NCBI GenBank assembly: GCA_018823745.1
Contig: JAHJHR010000002.1
Coordinates: 124,001-188,000, forward strand
DNA: 64,000 bases
From: Alphaproteobacteria bacterium
GTDB taxonomy: Bacteria; Pseudomonadota; Alphaproteobacteria; Oceanibaculales; Oceanibaculaceae
Reading direction: 5' to 3'
Shown in pieces: positions 22,189 through 24,501 of the stretch; position 1 is the stretch's first letter; each line of letters begins with the position of its first letter. The notes under the pieces were generated by a model that was given only the letters and a program-made list of their open reading frames with translations, was not told where the DNA came from and made no database searches. The position numbers and the translations under genes were made by a program.

Positions 22189-22244
22189 TCAACAAAGTGG
22201 TTGACTATCGAAAAAACATCTTCATATTTAACCGTATGGTTGAA
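22189..22244. promoter_or_regulatory. candidate ArsR-type operators (two inverted repeats)
   Basis: TCAAC-AAAGTG-GTTGA (22189..22204) and TTtAACC-GTAT-GGTTgAA (22227..22244), the second spanning the ATG of the regulator. Confidence 0.55.
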
Positions 22245-22619
22245 CATGAAAACATACAGCTGGACACGGTGTTCCACGCTCTCGGCGATCCCACGCGGCG
22301 GCAGATGCTGCAGGCACTGGCCGGGGGTGAGCGCACAGTGAGCCAGCTGGCCGACCCCTTCGACATTTCGCTGGCGGCGGCCTCCAAGCACATCAAGGCA
22401 CTGGAAAGGGCCGGGCTGATCCGCCGCGAGGTGCGCGGCCGGACTCATCTCTGCCGCCTTGAGCCCGGACCGCTGGCCAGCGCGCATGAATGGCTGGGCT
22501 TCTACCAGCGCTTCTGGACCGAGCGTCTGGACATCCTTGAGCGCCTGCTGCGCGAGGAAGATGACCGCAAATCCCCCTTGCCCCCTACATCCAAGACCCC
22601 GGAAGGAGACGAAAAATGA
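22236..22619 (+). CDS. ArsR/SmtB-family winged-helix regulator
   Basis: MVEHENIQLDTVFHALGDPTRRQMLQALAGGERTVSQLADPFDISLAAASKHIKALERAGLIRREVRGRTHLCRL. Confidence 0.92.
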   Translation: MVEHENIQLDTVFHALGDPTRRQMLQALAGGERTVSQLADPFDISLAAASKHIKALERAGLIRREVRGRTHLCRLEPGPLASAHEWLGFYQRFWTERLDILERLLREEDDRKSPLPPTSKTPEGDEK

Positions 22620-23167
22620 GCGACACATTGACCCTGGATGCCTATGGCAGCCTGATCGAACCCGCCACGCTGAAGATCCAGCGTCTACTGCCCGGCCCTG
22701 CCGAGCGTATCTGGGCCTATCTGACGGAGAGCGATTTGCGCCGCCAGTGGCTGGCCTCGGGCGCGATGGAGAAGATGCCCGGCACCAGCTTCGAGTTTGT
22801 CTGGCGCAATGACGAGCTGACCGACCCGCCCGGCCAGCGACCGGCGGATATGTCCGGCGAGCACCGGATGACCTGCACCATCACCGAGTGCGACGCGCCG
22901 CACCGTCTGGTCATCACCTGGGGCGAGAAGCAGACCGGCGAGGTCACCTTCGAGCTGGAGAAGATGGGCGACAAGGTGATGCTGACCATCATCCACCGCC
23001 GCGTCCCCAGCCGGGACATCCTGCTGAACGTCTCCTCCGGCTGGCATGCGCATCTCGACGTGCTGGTCGCCCGCCTGACCGGCACGACCCCCGCGCCGCA
23101 TTGGGACCACTGGGCATATTTGCGCGTGGAGTATGACAAGCGCCTGCCGGCCTGCCCGGGAAACTGA
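22616..23167 (+). CDS. SRPBCC/AHSA1-family protein
   Basis: IQRLLPGPAERIWAYLTESDLRRQWLASGAMEKMPGTSFEFVWRND; overlaps the arsR-like gene by 4 nt. Confidence 0.88.
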   Translation: MSDTLTLDAYGSLIEPATLKIQRLLPGPAERIWAYLTESDLRRQWLASGAMEKMPGTSFEFVWRNDELTDPPGQRPADMSGEHRMTCTITECDAPHRLVITWGEKQTGEVTFELEKMGDKVMLTIIHRRVPSRDILLNVSSGWHAHLDVLVARLTGTTPAPHWDHWAYLRVEYDKRLPACPGN

Positions 23168-23179
23168 ATACAAAGCTTC

Positions 23180-23278
23180 TGTCACCCCCGGGCTTGACCC
23201 AGGGGTCCAGGGGCGGTGCCCTGCCTGTGACGTCTCAGCAAGCCGCGCTGGATTGCCGGGTCAAGCCCGGCAATGACA
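23180..23278. repeat. palindromic intergenic repeat (family A)
   Basis: CCGGGCTTGACCC (23188..23200) and GGGTCAAGCCCGG (23258..23270), perfect 13-bp inverted arms, flanked by TGTCA...TGACA. Confidence 0.7.
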
Positions 23279-23354
23279 GCATAATTGCAGTCATACGGAG
23301 GCTCCCCCACGCTTGACAGGCCCTGGCTCCCTGAGTACCGTCCGCCCCGTCATT

Positions 23355-23507
23355 GGGGAGTAGCCGTCCCCCTTTCGCGGAAACGCGGTTGAGGGGAGGT
23401 CGCGTCAACAGACTTGGCATTGCCTGCAAAGGCGGTGACATGGCGCGAACAGCCAGCGGAGCCGGATTAGCCGGTCCCCCGCACCCGGTTTGGCGAGACC
23501 TTTGGCA
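23355..23507 (+). ncRNA. yybP-ykoY family (manganese) riboswitch, candidate
   Basis: GGGGAGTAGCCGTCCCC at the 5' end and GGCGAGACCTTTGGCA at the 3' end, the conserved internal-loop segments of the family, about 80 nt upstream of a TMEM165/GDT1 ORF. Confidence 0.82.
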
Positions 23508-23585
23508 TCGACAGCCGCGAACCCGGGTCGGGACGGCGGGCTGACGATGTCGAAGTGTGTCCGCCGTCCGACCCGATGCGACTTC

Positions 23586-24155
23586 ATGGAAGCCTTTCTC
23601 GTTTCGACCGGTGTGGTCGCGCTTGCCGAAATCGGTGACAAGACCCAGTTGCTGGCTCTGTTGCTGGCGGCCCGCTATCGCCAGCCGGTACCAATCCTGC
23701 TGGGGATCTTTGTTGCCACTTTGGCCAATCACGCCCTGGCCGGCCTGTCCGGCGCCTGGCTTGCCAGCCTGTTCGAGCCGGCTTTGCTGCGCTGGATCAT
23801 CGGCCTGTCCTTCCTGGCCGTGGCCGGCTGGATGCTGATACCCGACAAGCTCGACGAGGATGATTCGCCGCGCCTCGGCCGGAGCGCCTTCATCGCCGCA
23901 ACGGTCTCGATGTTCCTGGCCGAGATGGGCGACAAGACGCAGATCGCCACCATCGTGCTGGGGGCGCGCTTCGATGCGCTGGTCGCCGTGGTCGCCGGCA
24001 CCACGCTGGGCATGATGATCGCCAATGCCCCGGCCGTGCTGCTGGGCGAGGCCGCCGCCCGGCATGTGCCGCTGAAGCTGGTGCATGGTGCCGCCGCCGC
24101 AATTTTCGCGGTGGTCGGCATCACTGTCCTGCTTGGCTTCGGCACCCTGTCGTGA
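23586..24155 (+). CDS. TMEM165/GDT1 (UPF0016) family cation transporter, probable Mn2+ exporter
   Basis: MEAFLVSTGVVALAEIGDKTQLLALLLA and second copy FLAEMGDKTQIATIVLGA: the paired E-x-G-D-K-T-Q motifs of the family; alternative in-frame ATG at 23547. Confidence 0.92.
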   Translation: MEAFLVSTGVVALAEIGDKTQLLALLLAARYRQPVPILLGIFVATLANHALAGLSGAWLASLFEPALLRWIIGLSFLAVAGWMLIPDKLDEDDSPRLGRSAFIAATVSMFLAEMGDKTQIATIVLGARFDALVAVVAGTTLGMMIANAPAVLLGEAAARHVPLKLVHGAAAAIFAVVGITVLLGFGTLS

Positions 24156-24201: not shown

Positions 24202-24501
24202 ATGGCCGATTATCCTGCCGCGACCGCAACCCAACAGGCGGATAACGAGCGGGTCTGCGTGACCGAATGGCGCTTTCCGCCGGGCCATGCGACGGGCTGG
24301 CATCGCCATGGCTATGACTATGTCGTGGTGCCGATGACCGATGGCGTGCTGACGCTGCAGCACCCGGACGGCACGACCACCGAGGGGCCGATCACCATGG
24401 GTCAGTCCTATTACCGGAAATCCGGCGTCGAGCACGATGTCATCAACCTGACCGACCGCGAGATCGTCTTCGTCGAGATCGAGTTCAAGACGCCGGGCTG
24501 A
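24202..24501 (+). CDS. cupin domain-containing protein
   Basis: VTEWRFPPGHATGWHRHGYDYVVVPMTDGVLTLQHPDG. Confidence 0.8.
   Translation: MADYPAATATQQADNERVCVTEWRFPPGHATGWHRHGYDYVVVPMTDGVLTLQHPDGTTTEGPITMGQSYYRKSGVEHDVINLTDREIVFVEIEFKTPG

Follow-up and report, generated by a model that had tools for sequence, protein, structure and literature searches.

Membrane proteins of the GDT1/UPF0016 family are known as bacterial exporters of manganese. A screen of 333 bacterial strains possessing a UPF0016 gene found it controlled by yybP-ykoY RNAs in 328 (PMC7380456), and the pairing of this RNA class with the GDT1 family is already textbook knowledge. In V. cholerae, Mn2+ induces mneA, whose product, MneA, exports the ion (PMC7380456). 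For the similarly arranged mneA of V. parahaemolyticus, RNA-seq gave no sign of termination (PMC13274385). The mechanism of these riboswitches has been described elsewhere: in L. lactis, Mn2+ stabilises helix P1.1 of the aptamer, and without Mn2+ the 3' strand of P1.1 passes into a terminator, the off-state hairpin (PMC11087558). For the Mn2+ riboswitch of E. coli mntP, activation of translation initiation is reported (PMC9603457).

Our present results concern a leader of this kind in a 64 kb stretch of alphaproteobacterial DNA (64,000 nucleotides, hereafter the window). We estimate the probability that the locus is a Mn2+ riboswitch controlling a GDT1 gene at roughly 93%. Its identity is supported because the covariance-model score exceeds a curated cut-off, helix P1 covaries across relatives, and the pair of RNA and gene is conserved within the genus and recurs in numerous other proteobacteria; on these same grounds the yybP-ykoY reading of the preliminary description is upheld.

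The aptamer and helix P1

Searching with cmscan against Rfam release 15 gave a match to RF00080 (Manganese, yybP-ykoY) at 23343-23494 of the plus strand, on which the promoter, leader helices and transporter gene described below also lie. The match scores 48.0 bits (E 9.8e-10) and spans model positions 1-177 of 177. This covariance-model check, proposed in the preliminary description, thus clears the gathering score of 45 bits, by only 3 bits. RF00080 is the sole Rfam family above its cut-off across the window, and the whole genome holds a single match to it, upstream of a GDT1 gene.

Two conserved blocks had been noted in the leader at a distance of about 135 nt, and they start 137 nt apart, GGGGAGTAGCCG at 23355 and GGCGAGACCTTTGGCA at 23492. 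The first opens the L1 metal-site segment GGGGAGUAGCC (23355-23365), which includes the 5' strand of helix P1.2 (GCC, 23363-23365). Within L1, GGGGAGUAG shows no variation among 35 distinct aligned sequences, an invariance that is partly by construction, as the alignment rows were gathered by the L1 and GC[AG]AGAC motifs. The P3/L3 region (23401-23446), with the conserved stretches GCGUCAACA-ACUUGG and CAUGGCGC, fits the Rfam consensus. Both segments that form the metal pocket in yybP-ykoY RNAs, L1 (GGGGAGUAGC) and L3, are found here, aligned with high posterior probability, and the small nested helices reported between the conserved parts are present as well. By analogy with the rest of its family, the RNA would bind Mn2+.

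The Rfam match stops at 23494 and leaves most of the second block outside. This block, at the 3' edge, is part of the aptamer, where it forms the second strand of helix P1. With this strand included, the aptamer annotated from cmscan and P1 covariation occupies 23343-23506, and its best boundary is 23349-23506. The sequence GGCGAGACCUUUGGC (23492-23506), second motif of the preliminary description, supplies the 3' strands of both parts of the helix. In P1.2, GGC (23492-23494) pairs with GCC (23363-23365); in P1.1, CCUUUGGC (23499-23506) pairs with GUCAUUGG (23349-23356), with standard pairs at six of eight positions and two central U-U. Across the 35 distinct relatives, 83.1% of P1 cells are paired, compared with 14.9-53.2% when the strands are slid one to three columns. 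The covariation score is 0.214 (0.138 for shuffled data), a value reached by none of 500 shuffles, and five of the eight P1.1 pairs have changed on both sides.

The RNA-gene pair and its surroundings

The gene behind the leader (23586-24155, ATG start) codes for a GDT1/UPF0016 (TMEM165-like) divalent cation transporter of 189 amino acids. Its product matches Pfam GDT1 (PF01169) with 147.1 bits against a cut-off of 27, each half giving a separate domain match of its own. Two E-[IM]-G-D-K-T-Q motifs correspond to the duplicated E-x-G-D-[KR]-[ST] of the family, so that the earlier assignment to UPF0016, made from duplicated E-G-D-K-T-Q motifs, was correct. Family membership suggests that the transporter exports Mn2+. 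The protein begins with MEAFLVSTG, a start common to the members of the genus and in agreement with homologue starts in other proteobacteria. As the GDT1 frame is open from 23490 to 24155 in the window, the gene might instead begin at TTG 23490 or at the in-frame ATG 23547, which would make the end of the leader coding and place hairpin B (described below) inside the gene. In two of four genus members, however, the ATG equivalent to 23547 is out of frame with the gene, and MEAFLVSTG is the genus-wide start; we regard such an extended gene as very improbable.

RF00080 RNAs are present in all four compared genomes of the order, which belong to one genus, with scores of 48.0, 47.1, 45.1 and 42.8 bits; three exceed the cut-off and the last one, in G003, is just below it. 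Every one of them lies upstream of a GDT1 orthologue, and the orthologue of the window shares 80-84% identity with the other three. All four genomes retain the aptamer core, both strands of P1 and the two downstream helices, although their peripheral arms and spacers are of unequal length. Inside the aptamer (23343-23506), it is the P4 arm and the P2 and P3 tips whose lengths differ from member to member, around an unchanged core. A score of 48 bits at a cut-off of 45 is modest, other proteobacterial GDT1 leaders reaching 80-103 bits, and might be expected of a decayed, non-functional relic that scores by conserved sequence only. That the paired elements named above have all been retained in four of four genomes despite length changes in arms and spacers makes decay extremely improbable, and the variable 3' part of the RF00080 model, poorly aligned here, can account for the low score.

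Beyond the genus, a sample of 20 GDT1 loci from other bacteria contained 14 with RF00080 above its cut-off just upstream. Matches occur in 57 of 387 genomes of the class, and 26 of the 29 best class loci with the motif located have a GDT1-type motif downstream. These counts fit the published pairing of UPF0016 genes with yybP-ykoY (328 of 333; PMC7380456).

A probable promoter (23313-23341) precedes the aptamer, consisting of TTGACA (23313-23318) and, after 17 nt, TACCGT (23336-23341). TTGACA and TACCGTCC are unchanged across the four genus genomes, and TACCGT at its 17 nt distance is invariant too. The promoter, whose second hexamer is weak, was absent from the output of a consensus scan, and for this reason we infer it from conservation. 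Judged from these hexamers, transcription would probably start at about 23348, close to the first base of P1.

Ahead of the promoter, the spacer (23188-23270) contains inverted copies of CCGGGCTTGACCC, a motif that occurs 10 times in the genome (0 times for a reversed control). It probably represents a palindromic intergenic repeat, or else belongs to the preceding gene's 3' end. Just upstream (22197-23167), an ArsR-type regulator is followed by an AHSA1-domain protein; the two are a common pair, probably unrelated to the riboswitch locus. On the other side, a small cupin-domain protein is encoded directly after the transporter gene (24202-24501) and seemingly adjoins it also in the relatives G002 and G003. 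We know of no link between this protein and manganese.

Predicted expression platform and level of control

Between aptamer and start codon, two further helices are predicted. Helix A, an anti-P1.1 helix, is formed by 23500-23516 and 23539-23555, paired at 16 of 17 positions. Its 5' strand overlaps the 3' strand of P1.1 by 7 nt and takes up seven of the eight bases there. Hairpin B, present in each of the four genus genomes, forms a strong and GC-rich stem in which GGGUCGGGACGGCGG (23525-23539) pairs, with one bulge, with CCGCCGUCCGACCC (23561-23574); 11 nt separate its end from the start codon. The two helices cross and would be mutually exclusive as full helices, 5 nt between them being too short. 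When partners were swapped among 37 loci, which are related and do not represent independent trials, helix A had an energy of -25.7 kcal/mol with its own partner and -17.9 kcal/mol with swapped ones (own better in 36 loci); the values for hairpin B were -27.3 and -23.4 (own better in 29). Because shuffled window sequence reaches the energy of helix A in 24 of 1000 cases, the case for this helix is built on the relatives.

Other candidates were set aside. Helix S, in which the 3' strand of P1.2 would pair directly with the ribosome site, looked attractive in some betaproteobacteria and was dropped after the same comparison (-8.5 own, -8.2 swapped, own better in 14 of 37). Pairing of GAUGCGACUU, located before the start codon, with the 5' strand of P3 was seen when helix A was forced; by eye it is lost in two genus members and it is not claimed. 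On the minus strand over hairpin B, a match to Chloroflexi-1 RNA (22.9 bits, cut-off 80) is taken as chance.

We propose that the leader riboswitch would probably turn the exporter on at high Mn2+. The ion would dock L1 with L3 and keep P1.1 (23349-23356 paired to 23499-23506) closed. In its absence, the long anti-P1.1 stem (23500-23516 paired to 23539-23555) would draw in the 3' strand of P1.1; this stem would cross, and hence exclude, hairpin B ahead of the start codon. By analogy, helix A would fill the role of the L. lactis off-state hairpin. Folding thermodynamics alone, omitting metal docking and co-transcriptional order, prefers a non-P1 fold by 13.4 kcal/mol.

Translation initiation is the likeliest level of control, and a reasonably probable one, because the leader is devoid of a U-tract terminator: no GC-rich hairpin with U-run (intrinsic terminator) was found in 23343-23586. 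With the same aptamer and gene, hairpin B or helix A might instead promote termination of transcription, intrinsic or by Rho, as termination is used by L. lactis (PMC11087558) and hairpin B offers a strong, GC-rich, genus-conserved stem. This stem is, however, followed by GATGCGACTTCATGG and not by a U-run, and the single terminator pattern found lies inside the gene, at chance level, so that control of transcription appears rather unlikely. As to translational control, no clear Shine-Dalgarno sequence precedes ATG 23586 among the four genus members. When P1 was forced closed in folding, the putative ribosome-site region was freed in 19 of 37 loci and closed in 6, the effect being small in three of four genus members; modelled opening of this kind lends translational control weak support.

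P1.1, the anti-P1.1 stem and the pre-start hairpin may constitute a three-helix platform common to proteobacterial GDT1 leaders, here controlling translation without a Shine-Dalgarno sequence. We offer this wider idea as a doubtful one; a limited literature search found no dedicated description of such a platform.

Comparison with known systems

The locus shares with yybP-ykoY (RF00080) RNAs the L1 segment GGGGAGUAGC, the P3/L3 consensus, the GC[AG]AGACC 3' strand of P1 and the position ahead of a manganese-handling gene. It differs from the RF00080 model in that the P1.1 3' strand lies just past the match and the score is near the cut-off, and the sequences of its downstream hairpins are lineage-specific. 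Proteobacterial GDT1 leaders, including those of mneA in V. cholerae and V. parahaemolyticus, combine the same RNA class with the same transporter family (PMC7380456, PMC13274385). As here, GDT1 loci of beta- and gammaproteobacteria have, besides an anti-P1.1 stem, a second one ahead of the start codon; other proteobacterial loci often carry a purine-rich site right after this second stem, whereas the four genus genomes lack it. The E. coli mntP riboswitch belongs to the same aptamer class, and we prefer the translational control reported for it (PMC9603457) for our locus as well; its downstream gene is of the MntP family and not GDT1, and the mechanism at our locus is a predicted one. Since RNA class and gene family were already known together, the general picture is unchanged. 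What is added is that an exporter, probably responsive to Mn2+, can be annotated with confidence in a genus that has received little study, together with a concrete model for how P1 could couple to expression.
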